64,000 bases of DNA from Desulfuromonadales bacterium (GTDB lineage Bacteria > Desulfobacterota > Desulfuromonadia > Desulfuromonadales > BM103). Below the pieces are notes generated by a model that saw only the letters and a list, made by a program, of their open reading frames with translations, had not been told where the DNA came from and searched no databases. How positions within the stretch are numbered: position 1 is the first letter of the stretch; every line of letters begins with the position of its first letter. Below are positions 3,486-49,951 of this stretch, one piece after another. The DNA lies in assembly GCA_014860225.1 (NCBI GenBank), contig JACZKE010000009.1, positions 1 to 64,000 of the forward strand, in the 5' to 3' direction. The translations under genes and the position numbers were made by a program.

Positions 3486-3663
3486 CTATCAAATGGGTAG
3501 GTCTTTATGAGTGTATTATTTCTATCAACAAGGCTTTACCGGTACTTGATAGCCAGTGTCACAAAATCTGTCCAATTGCGCGTACGGATACTATCAAAAG
3601 GTTATCCTCATTGACAAAGGTTTGTCGATCCACTATCAATAGGGCTGTATTTTAACTTGATAG
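3486..3663. repeat. Operator-like array: duplicated CTATCAA-N17-TTGATAG plus single half-sites
   Basis: Two copies of a 31-bp inverted repeat, CTATCAA-N17-TTGATAG, lie at 3522-3552 and 3633-3663, exactly 111 bp apart. Similarity continues outside the arms (GCCAGTRTC after the right arm). Extra CTATCAA half-sites occur at 3486-3492 and 3591-3597. A separate near-palindrome, TTGACAAA-GG-TTTGTCGA, lies at 3611-3628. The second copy is 41 bp upstream of the recombinase-like gene. The rest of 3266-3485 shows no gene I can support. Confidence 0.65.
3611..3639 (+). promoter_or_regulatory. Candidate promoter of the recombinase-like gene
   Basis: TTGACA (3611-3616), a 17-nt spacer and TATCAA (3634-3639). 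The -10 lies inside the left arm of the second operator copy (3633-3663), so binding there would block the promoter. A start near 3646 would give a leader of about 60 nt. Confidence 0.45.
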
Positions 3664-3704
3664 CCAGTATCTCAGGTAAGACCCTATTGATTGGTATATT
3701 TATA

Positions 3705-19691: not shown

Positions 19692-19726
19692 CTAGTGCCT
19701 ATCCGGAAACTCCGGACAACACAAAG
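19692..19726 (-). repeat. Dispersed repeat family B, third and partial copy
   Basis: On the minus strand this reads TGTGTTGTCCGGAG then TTTCCGGATAGGCACTA, matching the core of the longer copies at 31013-31080 and 44230-44297. It lies directly against the ribosome site of the gene at 19738. Confidence 0.65.
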
Positions 19727-19737
19727 GAAGGTGGGTT

Positions 19738-22092: not shown

Positions 22093-22206
22093 GCAAGGTT
22101 TCTAATCAGAGTAACTTCATTGCGTTCACGCTGGGTTACCGTCCGGAAAACGACCATGGATTGAGAAGGAATGTGATTGGACCAATATGCCGGAATTGTT
22201 GCCGGC

Positions 22207-22386
22207 TTACGGATAGCCCGAAAGGCCGATAGCAGAGAACGTGAGGTCCAGCTCCATTTCTGGCACTTGCTTGGCGATCCACGCGGTGAAGAGATTGCTG
22301 TTGGGACCGGGGAATACCCTGTAGGTCGTTTTCCACGGTTATGTATGGGCAGCCTTGTCAATATCATGAATCAGTTCATCGACTCC
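22207..22386 (-). pseudogene. Remnant of a DUF3750-type gene with an in-frame stop
   Basis: One minus-strand frame of 60 codons reads GVDELIHDIDKAAHT, stop, PWKTTYRVFPGPNSN, LFTAWIAKQVPEMELDL, TFSAIGLSGYP, stop (TAA at 22209-22207). PGPNSNxF followed by W.A.QVPE..L.L...AIG is, from memory, the signature of the C-terminal part of DUF3750 proteins. The internal TAA (22341-22339) sits where the family has an aromatic residue before PW. The N-terminal part is missing, cut off next to the lepB terminator. A dead fragment. Confidence 0.55.
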
Positions 22387-25232: not shown

Positions 25233-27095
25233 ATGTCATTGATTATAGAGATGCTGCAGAAAAGTTGTCGGAAATATGCCAAAAAGACTGCTCTGCGTTA
25301 TAAAGTGGCCGGATGCTGGACTGAATACAGTTACGAGCAGATATGGCAGACATCCGACCATGTAGCAGCCGGGCTGTCTGAATGGGGCATTGATGCAGGG
25401 GAACGCGCTGCCCTGCTGGCACCCTCTTCTCCAGCCTGGGTTGTAACTTACTTCGGCATCATTAAAAGCAACGCCATTGTCGTACCGGTCGACAAGGATC
25501 TCAAGCAGGGAGAACTTCGTCACATCCTTTCCGACTGCGGCGCCCGCGTGCTCTTTACTGAACAGGCCTTCCTCGAAACCGTTTACGACATTGCCGAGAG
25601 CTTGCCATCCCTCGAGAAAATCGTTCTTTTAAATCATGCTCCGACTCCGGAAGGACCGCTCCCGACGCAGGCTGAGCATGCCTTGACGGAACTGGTCATG
25701 GAATGGCGCAGGCTCAGTCGTCGATACCGGATTAAAGATGCTGACGTTAAGAAATTCGAAAACCTGGCTGAAGGTTTCCAGGAATTAATCGTGCCGACAA
25801 TGATCAAACAGGATGAAGGAAAGAAGAACTTCTTTTCACGCCTGCTGCATGCCCGCGATAAGGAGCTGCCGCTCTTCGATGTAGAATCGCTGGAAGACTT
25901 CCAGAGGACCACTCCTCCCCCTCTGTTGCAGCGTCAAGAGAACGATCCAGCTGTGATTCTCTACACCTCCGGTACAACGGGACGATCCAAAGGAGCCATG
26001 TTGAGTCATGCGAACATTTCCAGCAATGTCCATTCTGCCGTGGAGCTGTTTGCACTTGACCCCAATATGCACACCCTCTCCTTCCTGCCGATCAACCATG
26101 TTTTCGAGCAAGTTGCAGGGATCATCCTGCCGCTTTCGGTGGGAGGGACCGTCTCCTTTGCTGAGAGCCTGCGTAAACTGGGCGACAACCTCGCTGAAGT
26201 CAAACCGAACTTCCTGCTCGGTGTCCCGGCTGTCTTTCGCCTGCTAGCGGATCGCATGACACGCAAAATTGAGAGCAAGAAGCTATCGAAAGCCCTTTAC
26301 ACCTTCGGCCCGACCCGACCGTTGGTTACCAGAAAAATCCGGGAAGCCTTTGGAGGCAACCCGGTGTTTATAAGCGGCGGAGCAGCTCTCGACCCGGTCA
26401 TCGCATCCAAACTTATGGATCTGGGACTCAATGTTTACCAGGGCTACGGCATTACAGAGACATCGCCGGTCATCGCAGTGGAAACCCCCGAGATGAAGCG
26501 GCTCGGCACAGTCGGTAAACCGATACCGGGTGTCGAGGTTAAAATTCACGAACCGAATTCTGAAGGCGTTGGCGAAATCTGGGCCAAAGGGCCAAACATC
26601 ATGCTCGGCTATTACAACGATCACGAGGCCACCGATGAGGCCATCACCGATGGCTGGTACCATACCGGTGACCTGGGATGCATCGAAGCCGACGGCTACC
26701 TGGTGATCTGTGGGCGGCTCAAGAACCTGATTGTTACGGCAAACGGCAAGAACGTCTACCCGGAAGAAGTAGAAAACGAAATTTTGAACAGTCAATTTGT
26801 TGCAGAAATAATGGTTTATGGTCATAAAGTTGATCATACTTCTGAGGAAGTTTACGCTATCATCTACCCGGACCAGGATGCACTTGATGAATATGCTGAA
26901 GAGCTTGGTTCGGCTCCCTTTGAGCCACGGGAAATCGAGAATCTGATTCGCAAGGAGGTTTTGGAGCGCGGCAAGAACCTGGCCGACTACAAAAGAATCA
27001 AGCGCTTCACTCTGCGCGACATTGAATTCCCTAAAACCACAACGCGCAAAATCAAGCGTTTTGTCGTGGAGGCGGATATCGATGCGGAGGCCTAG
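25233..27095 (+). CDS. AMP-binding long-chain acyl-CoA synthetase family protein
   Basis: 620 residues of the ANL superfamily. It should activate a carboxylic (fatty) acid to acyl-AMP and then acyl-CoA. The P-loop YTSGTTGRSKGAML, GYGITETSPV, the D of YHTGDLG, GRLKNLIVTANGKNVYP and the C-terminal catalytic lysine region TTRKIKRF are all present. The length and the long insertion at residues about 150-215 resemble long-chain (FadD15-like) enzymes. AGGGAG precedes the start. The dispersed element at 27103 begins 8 bp after its stop. Confidence 0.92.
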   Translation: MSLIIEMLQKSCRKYAKKTALRYKVAGCWTEYSYEQIWQTSDHVAAGLSEWGIDAGERAALLAPSSPAWVVTYFGIIKSNAIVVPVDKDLKQGELRHILSDCGARVLFTEQAFLETVYDIAESLPSLEKIVLLNHAPTPEGPLPTQAEHALTELVMEWRRLSRRYRIKDADVKKFENLAEGFQELIVPTMIKQDEGKKNFFSRLLHARDKELPLFDVESLEDFQRTTPPPLLQRQENDPAVILYTSGTTGRSKGAMLSHANISSNVHSAVELFALDPNMHTLSFLPINHVFEQVAGIILPLSVGGTVSFAESLRKLGDNLAEVKPNFLLGVPAVFRLLADRMTRKIESKKLSKALYTFGPTRPLVTRKIREAFGGNPVFISGGAALDPVIASKLMDLGLNVYQGYGITETSPVIAVETPEMKRLGTVGKPIPGVEVKIHEPNSEGVGEIWAKGPNIMLGYYNDHEATDEAITDGWYHTGDLGCIEADGYLVICGRLKNLIVTANGKNVYPEEVENEILNSQFVAEIMVYGHKVDHTSEEVYAIIYPDQDALDEYAEELGSAPFEPREIENLIRKEVLERGKNLADYKRIKRFTLRDIEFPKTTTRKIKRFVVEADIDAEA

Positions 27096-27102
27096 GAGAC
27101 TA

Positions 27103-27249
27103 TCGGACTATACGGACCGAAGCGAAAATTTGGATGTTTGAGAACAGATTTTAGCTCATTTGCAGGTTCATAGCCGTAGCTATGGACCAAAAAGGAGCTG
27201 AAATATGGGCCGAACTGCCAAATTTGCAGCCGGTTCATGGATAGTCCGA
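27103..27249. repeat. Dispersed intergenic element A, full copy 1 (147 bp)
   Basis: Bounded by TCGGACTAT (27103-27111) and its exact inverse ATAGTCCGA (27241-27249). Nested inside are AAAATTTGG/CCAAATTT, TTTTAGCTC/GAGCTGAAA and the central GGTTCATAGC-CGTA-GCTATGGACC, so the element can fold as one long hairpin. A second full copy is at 49743-49891 and right-end fragments are at 32645-32677 and 38716-38748. It carries no reading frame. Confidence 0.85.
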
Positions 27250-27266
27250 CAGCCTCCGAGTACCCT

Positions 27267-31012: not shown

Positions 31013-31080
31013 AGAAAAATTGCTCGTTTCCAGATCGAAAACTGTGCTTGTGTTGTCTGGAGCTTCCGGATGGACACTAA
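31013..31080 (+). repeat. Dispersed repeat family B, copy 2
   Basis: About 65 bp beginning AGAAAAATTGCTC and including AAAACTGTGCTTGTG and CTTCCGGATGGACA. It matches the copy at 44230-44297 with roughly nine differences. Its 3' half contains a short palindrome (TCTGGAG..TTCCGGA). It lies between dgt and rsmD; the rest of 30882-31139 shows nothing else. Confidence 0.8.
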
Positions 31081-31139
31081 CTCACATTTAAGCCATGCAA
31101 CATGCCATCTGTCAAGGCCGATTAACAACTCTCACCCGC

Positions 31140-32625: not shown

Positions 32626-32644
32626 AGTCGATATTCAAACAACC

Positions 32645-32677
32645 GGATTTGCAGCCGGATCAAGGATCGTCCGACAG
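32645..32677. repeat. Right-end fragment of dispersed element A
   Basis: GGATTTGCAGCCGG-ATCAAGGATCG-TCCGACAG matches the last 33 bases of the full copy ending near 27251 with a few changes. No left part is present. It abuts the stop of the barrel gene at 32682. Confidence 0.7.
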
Positions 32678-32681
32678 ACTT

Positions 32682-33377
32682 CTAGCCACCGAACTGGAAC
32701 GTCAGACCCAGCATGGCGCTCAAGTGATGACGCCAGTCTGAATCATCGTGAGACTCAAAATCATCGCTGCTGCGATAATCAAGGATATGTCGCACATCTA
32801 CGCGCAAAGCTGTATTTTGATTAATGGCATATTTGACCCCGCCACCCCACAGGCCCGCATAATCTTCGTCATTATGGCTTACGCCTTCAATATCATAGAT
32901 AATGACTCCGGCACCAGCAGCCAGATATGGACTCAGCCTTTGATCTGGCTGGAAATGATAGAGTGCGCTGACGCCGATAGTCCATATTTCAACATCCGGG
33001 TTACTGCCCTGGTCGAGATCGGTCTCGGTTGACGTGTAACGAACGTCGGTTTCGATCGCCCAATTACAAGACAGGTTGTATCCGACAGCCAGGCCGTAGG
33101 ACACATTATCTTCCAGTTGTAGACCACCATCGATCAGATGGTAACCAACCATGGGCGTCAACGTCCATGACTGCGGACAGTTCCGGCTTTGAAATGTTGT
33201 CGTGGGGACAGAATCCGTTCTGTCTGAGAATTGCGGATTGGTGCAGGTAGGTGGTTCGATGTAGCCGGGATAATCGCGATAAACCTTAGCCAGTTCCACT
33301 TCCCCAGCCATAGCAAACGGAACAAAGATTAAGCAAAAGACAACGACGAGGGCGACACGGCATGCAAGATGATACAT
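32682..33377 (-). CDS. Outer-membrane beta-barrel protein (OmpA N-domain-like)
   Basis: 231 residues. A signal peptide (1-24, ending AMA-GE) is followed by a region with three Cys, then about eight amphipathic strands such as WTLTPMVGYHLI, YGLAVGYNL, WAIETDVRYTS, WTIGVSALYHF, LSPYLAAGAGVI and LSAMLGLTFQFGG. The pattern fits an 8-stranded OMP_b-brl barrel. There is no C-terminal OmpA peptidoglycan domain. AGGAGG precedes the ATG. Function unknown. Confidence 0.8.
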   Translation of the reverse strand: MYHLACRVALVVVFCLIFVPFAMAGEVELAKVYRDYPGYIEPPTCTNPQFSDRTDSVPTTTFQSRNCPQSWTLTPMVGYHLIDGGLQLEDNVSYGLAVGYNLSCNWAIETDVRYTSTETDLDQGSNPDVEIWTIGVSALYHFQPDQRLSPYLAAGAGVIIYDIEGVSHNDEDYAGLWGGGVKYAINQNTALRVDVRHILDYRSSDDFESHDDSDWRHHLSAMLGLTFQFGG

Positions 33378-38326: not shown

Positions 38327-38776
38327 GGTTTTGTTCGATCCGCATAAAGTGGTGTTGCTTACGTATCAATCTGACCAATCATATTCTAAAACGATTAAAA
38401 CAACATACTATAATCACAATGATTTTCAATCATCTCGCGTCGGGGACCTGGAGTTGCAGGCGCAACTGCATGCCATCGGAAACTGTGATCTCGTGCAGGG
38501 CAATCTGTTCATAGAGGGAAAGCTACTTCGCGTACGACTTTCCAGGATGAAGAATAGCGTCTTCAAATTGTCATTGAATCGGGGCATCCAGGGATTGGCG
38601 ATATGGATGTGCTGGCCGGGGTACATCTGGAGATGGTATTTAAGGAAGGTGCTTCACACCTGCGACAATGGCAATTTGGCGGAGAACCACGCCAGCGTCG
38701 TTGCGACCACCAGCAGGATTTGCAGCCGGCTCATGAATAGTCCGACAGTCTGCCAGCCAGTTTTTAGAAGAACGGA
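38327..38776. other. Intergenic stretch with a possible gene remnant
   Basis: On the minus strand one frame reads FEDAILHPGKSYAK, stop, LSLYEQIALHEITVSDGMQL, RLQLQVPDAR, stop (38432-38430). It looks coding-like but has an internal stop and no start, so it may be a decayed 3' end. I do not recognise it. Element A's right end lies at 38716-38748. Confidence 0.35.
38716..38748. repeat. Right-end fragment of dispersed element A
   Basis: GGATTTGCAGCCGG-CTCATGAATAG-TCCGACAG matches the ends of the full copies. It lies just past the stop of the glycine-zipper gene at 38777, as the other fragment lies next to the barrel gene. Confidence 0.7.
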
Positions 38777-44229: not shown

Positions 44230-44297
44230 AGAAAAATTGCTCATATCCAGAGTGAAAACTGTGCTTGTGGTGTCCGGAGTTTCCGGATGGACATCAA
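44230..44297 (+). repeat. Dispersed repeat family B, copy 1
   Basis: AGAAAAATTGCTC, then AAAACTGTGCTTGTGG and TGTCCGGAG-TTTCCGGATGGACA, with the last part forming an imperfect hairpin. Matches 31013-31080 with about nine differences, and 19692-19726 over the 3' half. Located between the convergent AEC and mlaD genes. Confidence 0.8.
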
Positions 44298-44305
44298 ATA
44301 CAATT

Positions 44306-44331
44306 TGCCCATCCGGGTTCCCGGATGGGCA
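44306..44331 (-). terminator. Hairpin between AEC and mlaD ends
   Basis: A perfect 12-bp palindrome TGCCCATCCGGG (44306-44317), 2-nt loop, CCCGGATGGGCA (44320-44331). On the minus strand it is followed by AAATTGTATTTG, on the plus strand by A-rich sequence. Probably serves mlaD; the poor T tract lowers confidence. Confidence 0.55.
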
Positions 44332-49689: not shown

Positions 49690-49742
49690 GTCGAAGCATT
49701 CATCCAGTCATTTCAAAAGTTTAATAAGTATTACAAGGAGCC

Positions 49743-49891
49743 TGTTGATTATACGGGCCGAAGCGAAAATTTGGAAGTTTGAGAACAGATTTTAGCTCGA
49801 TTGAAGGTTCATAGCCGTAGCTATGAACCGAAAAGGAGCTGAAATATGGGCCAAACAGCCGAATTTGCAGCCGGTTCATGGATAGTCAACA
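49743..49891. repeat. Dispersed intergenic element A, full copy 2 (149 bp)
   Basis: About 85% identical to 27103-27249. Its outer arms are TGTTGATTAT (49743-49752) and ATAGTCAACA (49882-49891), which differ from copy 1 but again pair with one G-U. The central GGTTCATAGC-CGTA-GCTATGAACC is a perfect stem. It lies between the TPR gene and the tRNA-Glu terminator. Confidence 0.85.
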
Positions 49892-49951
49892 AACTCCTGG
49901 AGTGGTCGATGCAGGTCAATCATGATAGGGGTCAGGACGAAGATGTTGTGC

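Follow-up and report, generated by a model that had tools for sequence, protein, structure and literature searches.

Palindromic multicopy intergenic sequences are tabulated in Geobacter and Pelobacter genome papers (PMC2700814, PMC2996986, PMC3543383), and the passages of their main texts on these "multicopy nucleotide sequences" mention neither CTAG ends nor strand polarity. According to passages of PMC10969869, the Chunjie MITE of Geobacter uraniireducens is 178–235 bp long and mostly intergenic, with 38 copies bearing inverted ends and direct repeats and 57 partial copies. The element analysed here resembles this Geobacter MITE, as so described, in its mostly intergenic location, inverted ends and partial copies; Chunjie is longer, and the comparison is by description only, so the two may belong to the same family. 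The Correia, ERIC and QMITE repeats, again compared by description only (partly from passages of PMC10969869), are likewise MITE-like and folded with truncated forms. Other Geobacter motifs are named in passages of PMC11109978, while PMC2267715 mentions none of Geobacter, Pelobacter and Desulfovibrio. The REP, REPIN and BIME repeats are also high-copy intergenic palindromes, and the shortest forms of our element resemble REPs, but the element is ~169 bp long, has CTAG on both sides and also occurs in drafts that gave no Y1_Tnp match. In bacterial MITEs the interior commonly resembles decayed filler, and a conserved strand-polar interior is not known to us for Correia, ERIC or QMITE. Literature on the present family was not found in the open full-text library, as judged by titles and passages, and the occurrences of the string CTGTCGGACTA in the literature are unrelated by title. 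The family, with its conserved strand-polar interior, seems to be new, and it may already be among the unnamed multicopy sequences of Geobacter and Pelobacter.

The window, which means the whole 64,000-nt stretch of DNA that was analysed, contains two full copies and two clear right-end fragments of one element, located as follows.

27092..27260, plus strand: full-length copy 1 (CTAG ... CGAG), with the more stable strand, the one that reads GAAGCGAAAATTTGG first, on the plus strand
27092..27111, plus strand: left end of copy 1, CTAG and the terminal inverted repeat (family form CTAG followed by SAGNCTGTCGGACTAT)
27241..27260, minus strand: right end of copy 1, comprising the terminal inverted repeat and CGAG, a decayed CTAG
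49734..49900, plus strand: full-length copy 2 (CAAG ... CTGG, decayed CTAG ends), with outer arms altered on both sides
32640..32685, plus strand: right-end fragment with a terminal CTAG (32682–32685)
38711..38756, plus strand: right-end fragment with a terminal CCAG
22187..22235, plus strand: possible older right-end fragment with 63% identity to the reference copy across 49 nt, a weak match that may be due to chance

With its ends included, the element runs from CTAG through SAGNCTGTCGGACTATNCGGGCC and a long hairpin to GGCTCATGGATAGTCCGACAGNCTSCTAG. An earlier note made from the sequence had reported the two full copies, which are 92% identical over 141 ungapped bases. Its borders of 27103–27249 and 49743–49891 enclose the inner part and fall short of the CTAG-like ends, which extend to 27092–27260 and 49734–49900; both of its right-end fragments are real and wider than described. 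The 17-mer CCGGTTCATGGATAGTC was found four times in the window with up to 3 mismatches, compared with an expectation of 0.11. The stop codon of a 620-aa ORF (25233–27095) is the TAG within the left CTAG of copy 1. The element has terminal inverted repeats, is shorter than 500 bp, lacks coding capacity and occurs in many copies, all of which characterise a MITE. None of the 135 copies with usable flanks is located inside an uninterrupted ORF of at least 90 aa, in agreement with the statement that there is no reading frame. The window also holds another family of dispersed repeats, represented by CTAGTGYCYATCCGGAAACTCCGGACAACAC and the inverse sequence, at 19692–19727, 31013–31089 and 44230–44306, one copy of which begins with CTAG, as well as a 42-nt direct repeat (3522–3563 and 3633–3674; 76% identity, 111 bp apart).

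The genome from which the window comes (3.94 Mb, 68 contigs) contains at least 40 copies, these being the best 40 of 161 candidates scored, and some are cut at contig ends. The end motif was located at 231 sites of this genome with up to 3 mismatches, as compared with 55 for the reversed control. At least 12 contigs end within an element copy, and in practice the family breaks draft assemblies. In the complete genome G034, at least 40 copies were likewise obtained (the best 40 of 89 candidates), which are 96–100% identical to one among them. Across the order, the element was detected in at least 39 of 98 genomes (including its own) and at least 13 of 21 families; these hand-counted values are lower bounds, as three candidates were scored per genome among the matches listed. 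The exact core 36-mer gave 29 stretches in Pelobacter sp. UBA6093, UBA6812 and Desulfuromonadales LH_M60. Two divergent full copies (L087, 3075–3242; L216, 1386–1553) show ~70% identity to the window copy, and their fold is kept with different stems. A covariance-model search of relatives, as proposed in the earlier note, was performed with a model built from 74 copies; when 395 genomes of the phylum were scanned at 1e-5 under strict filters, 10 matched. Full-length matches outside the class were obtained in four genomes (G140, G188, G217 and G244; E 9e-26 to 1e-16), and a weak model match was obtained in G328. The genome G050, belonging to the same genus as G034, gave no match in this strict-filter scan, and so the element looks dispensable. 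It is carried by G024. The earlier note had named a lack of further copies, or arms that fail to pair in them, as the outcome that would speak against it; many more copies exist, and their arms pair. The plasmid and phage collections gave no element match. An exact 19-nt end motif was observed near the edge of a phage-like contig (L300, 5362–5380) without the rest of the element. This was the one exact match among viral contigs; it has no second end and was taken as chance.

Amplification is lineage-specific. Of 129 copies, 90 have their nearest neighbour in their own genome, as compared with 14.5 in label shuffles, which indicates bursts; this comparison treated UBA6093 and G063 as separate, although they are probably one genome. 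Copy 1 separates a conserved gene from a convergent one that looks ferredoxin-like by eye; in relatives (L111, L117 and L118, among others) these two genes adjoin with no element between them, which answers the call in the earlier note for a comparison of empty sites. When sites of G034 were queried with joined flanks, two of six were spanned without the element in genomes of the same genus, and the other four were not spanned. Empty sites, another mark of a MITE, are hence present in relatives, although their junctions are not readable to the base because these relatives are too diverged.

The tetranucleotide CTAG is rare in this DNA: 22 occurrences were counted in the window, whereas base composition predicts 249 and dinucleotide shuffles predict 122, a 5- to 11-fold depletion. 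It was nevertheless found at one or both ends of 126 among 143 copies (both 58, left 96, right 88, neither 17). Eight of the 143 copies abut a second end-like sequence with one tetranucleotide in common, which is CTAG in six and decayed in two (L216 and L055). The abutting neighbour in L186 is a short form sharing CTAG, and L216 is composed of two full copies with CTTG in common. The presence of CTAG at the ends and the common tetranucleotides fit insertion into CTAG with duplication, and CTAG is thus the probable 4-bp target duplication. Another family of palindromes, whose ends read CTAGTGTCCCGTGC(GG), was also observed, including after an ORF in L114, and two LH_M60 copies of the element studied here (L048, ~6405; L052, ~2942) lie directly at the CTAG end CTAGTGTCCCGTGC of such a palindrome.

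Both full copies of the window fold end to end, as had been noted, with energies of −71.9 and −69.3 kcal/mol (z −9.3 and −9.7) for copies 1 and 2, and none of 200 shuffles folded as well. The altered arms of copy 2, TGTTGATTAT on the left and TGTTGACTAT on the right (as reverse complement), are compensated except for one wobble, so that the arm changes pair within each copy as claimed. The earlier note took this compensation as an argument for selection on structure. Two copies alone are insufficient for that conclusion, because both ends of a MITE must fit one enzyme, and because one arm of a palindrome can be overwritten with the other in a single step of template switching (PMC8604942). The case for structure comes from wider data, namely a 74-copy alignment, conserved unpaired positions and strand polarity.

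The alignment comprised 74 of 117 distinct full copies; the 43 omitted were 31 copies of the own genome and 12 others, among them L218, whose right end is decayed. Length variants from named drafts with spacings of 104, 69, 73, 81, 124, 129 and 154 were dropped for runs of N, and N-free ones were retained. RNAalifold predicted 54 pairs for this alignment, of which 35 showed two-sided compensation. Paired cells amounted to 96.3%, and for five measures none of 500 shuffles scored as high; cells changed on both sides numbered 181 versus 34.9 in shuffles, in an alignment from which the structure itself was derived and whose related copies make cells and folds non-independent. Sliding the partner by 1–3 columns lowered pairing to 30–49%. 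The outer arms co-vary among copies, as in GTCGGACTAT/ATAGTCCGAC, GTCCGACAAT/ATTGTCGGAC (L217) and GTCCGAGAAT/ATTCTCGGAC (L220), and as GGAG/CTCC versus GCAG/CTGC. Four out-of-class copies (L306–L309), which lie outside the model, have the same fold although their stems differ widely in sequence (e.g., GAGGGAAGTGGGAGGAC against GTCCTCCCACTTTCC in L307), and the loop motifs GCGA-like/GCAG and TTTGAG/CGAAAA are retained in them.

A strand polarity was evident for this fold. The strand reading GAAGCGAAAATTTGG is the more stable RNA in every one of the 74 copies in the alignment (mean difference 19.4 kcal/mol), and the plus strand is more stable in all 117 distinct full copies. The same was obtained for the interior alone (74 of 74), and DNA parameters gave 73 of 74. 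For the other strand, RNAalifold predicted 28 pairs at −18.9 kcal/mol, as compared with 54 pairs at −46.7 kcal/mol. The four diverged out-of-class copies share this polarity, and a weak fifth one (L310) is a tie. At the RNAalifold pairs, 446 G-T cells were counted versus 39 A-C cells, a ratio with some circularity, since the folding itself permits G-U pairs. The fair recount is strand-symmetric: at 63 pairs with a Watson–Crick consensus, it gave 158 G-T versus 91 A-C cells and 34 versus 16 pairs (p 0.015), which is a moderate signal. Divided by hand, the outermost 11 pairs have 28 versus 42 such cells and the other 52 pairs have 130 versus 49, so that the ends resemble conventional inverted repeats of double-stranded DNA and the interior resembles a single strand that folds. 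Since the copies are related and consensus wobbles are inherited, polarity supports present selection and does not prove it.

These data bear on whether the element could be a plain MITE whose interior is unselected, with compensation generated by template switching and cross-species likeness by horizontal spread. Template switching is known to homogenise the arms of inverted repeats and to invert spacers (PMC8604942); the tip of the short form in L081 is inverted (by eye), and the copies of the own genome show greater likeness to those of G043, which belongs to another family, than to copies of other genomes. Template switching, however, would give Watson–Crick arms and remove loops, yet the loops, one-sided wobbles and polarity persist, and the loops and polarity hold in the diverged copies outside the class, apart from the tie mentioned above. 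An unselected interior is hence regarded as doubtful. The reading that we favour, and consider probable, is a non-autonomous MITE-type mobile element with CTAG ends whose propagation would use a strand-specific hairpin interior.

The gene context was examined for 135 flanked copies. In 99 of them the genes on both sides lay within 400 bp, in 30 a neighbour was more distant, and 6 lacked one; ORFs were called by a simple greedy script that is blind to genes broken by insertion. Among the 99 copies, 22 were sense and 35 antisense in intervals between co-directional genes, 23 were in convergent and 19 in divergent intervals, indicating no sense bias toward genes, and a cis-acting role in mRNA is therefore unlikely. 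One copy of G034 (L267, 1923–2091) seems to break an ORF resembling a PIN-domain gene (by eye), so gene avoidance is not absolute. The compensations, the conserved loops, the polarity with G-U pairs and the conservation outside the class could also be understood if a ~150-nt hairpin were transcribed from the copies or a few masters and bound by a host protein, with the multicopy, mobile character of its locus being incidental. The orientation counts do not favour such a structured RNA with a host function, and neither does the apparent dispensability in G050. The window copy also has no Rfam match, either at the gathering thresholds or at E up to 1, and three other loci gave two weak matches far below the cut-offs, of which mir-4657 (E 0.47) lies inside the element. 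We therefore consider a host-serving RNA unlikely.

Short forms were found alongside the full copies, and they are internal deletions of 38 to 95 bp. The own genome contains forms of ~68–76 bp and of 38 bp, and G034 contains forms of 66–95 bp, among which a 76-bp form was present at eight fetched places with an identical junction. Unless the deletion recurred, this single junction suggests that movement may be possible without the interior. Of eight forms tested, two had clear direct repeats where the deletion is joined, of 9 bp in a G034 form and 5 bp in L092; the script used undercounts repeats that extend into the first five bases, the 38-bp form being an example.

A source of the mobilising enzyme was sought among transposase genes with two Pfam profiles, PF05598 and PF01797, and otherwise through lists of end patterns. 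An autonomous copy was not found in G034 among the listed and fetched ends, which bracket no transposase, nor was an autonomous partner seen by eye among the ends listed for six one-contig genomes. Two ends ~1 kb apart in G034 were considered as an autonomous element and turned out to be a short form and a solo end around an unrelated ORF. The PF05598 enzyme was rejected as the mobiliser, because its one match in the own genome has no good end nearby. Six solo ends (L227, L232, L243, L245, L263 and L264) flank ordinary sequence or ORFs, among which no transposase was recognised by eye.

A REP/BIME- or REPIN-type repeat moved by a Y1 tyrosine transposase (RAYT) was among the candidates of the earlier note, together with a MITE and a structured RNA; this list includes the reading favoured here, and its BIME/REP member is unsupported, as the element lacks a one-sided GTAG tag and occurs in drafts without a Y1_Tnp match. 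REP sequences and REPINs are characterised in passages of PMC3733652 by a 20–40 bp palindrome with GTAG at one end; the element does not fit this definition and carries the same CTAG-tagged inverted repeat at both ends. It is nonetheless palindromic, intergenic and of high copy number, and six Y1_Tnp matches were found in the own genome, one of which is a RAYT-type gene with an element copy starting 18 bp upstream of its start codon (L103/L137, own contig C63). The sequence GGGGCCAGGTCTACACATTTCACATTTTTAGCACA was observed downstream of this gene and is like a stretch in L110. Relatives of the L103 RAYT were detected in 66 of 98 genomes at 1e-30 by protein search, and an element end near such homologues was seen at the own locus only, 29 of 30 loci being without one. 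Four element-bearing drafts (G004, G008, G010 and G080; 59–87% complete) gave no Y1_Tnp match, and among six element-bearing genomes two had a match (one in G044 and two in G032); matches were also present in the own genome, G034 and G063. An exact end was located near only one of 13 Y1 loci in G034 and G063 (L255) and one of six in the own genome (L103), and the Y1 genes at both places adjoin other short repeats (by eye). The orientation of copies in G034 showed no clear replichore bias (23 versus 17 of 40, counted by hand from a coarse, noisy skew). The Y1 genes thus do not track the element, a RAYT is unsupported as its mobiliser, and a repeat of this type is very unlikely.

For the favoured MITE-type element, a mechanism may be proposed as follows. 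Its ends, CTAG with the family repeat and the inverted counterpart at the far side, would be recognised by an enzyme acting in trans, and insertion into CTAG would leave CTAG on each side. The presumed target duplication would be made by a DDE-type transposase. The ~140-bp interior is no mere spacer and is kept as one long hairpin, which has conserved loops and whose wobble pairs work on one strand only. That strand would be single-stranded and folded during the propagation of the element itself, either as ssDNA or as a transcript helping the mobiliser; a single-stranded stage of its own cycle appears likeliest because the orientation toward host genes shows no sense bias. More tentatively, it is possible that the enzyme integrating this phylum-wide element at CTAG uses the folded strand, in RNA or ssDNA form, as its substrate or cofactor. 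To our knowledge, no bacterial miniature element has been reported to move by a folded strand that is integrated at CTAG. The copies turn over, while their interior persists as a structure of one strand only, in this order and in other classes of the phylum, and the role of a folded strand in the life of a miniature element thereby becomes a testable question.
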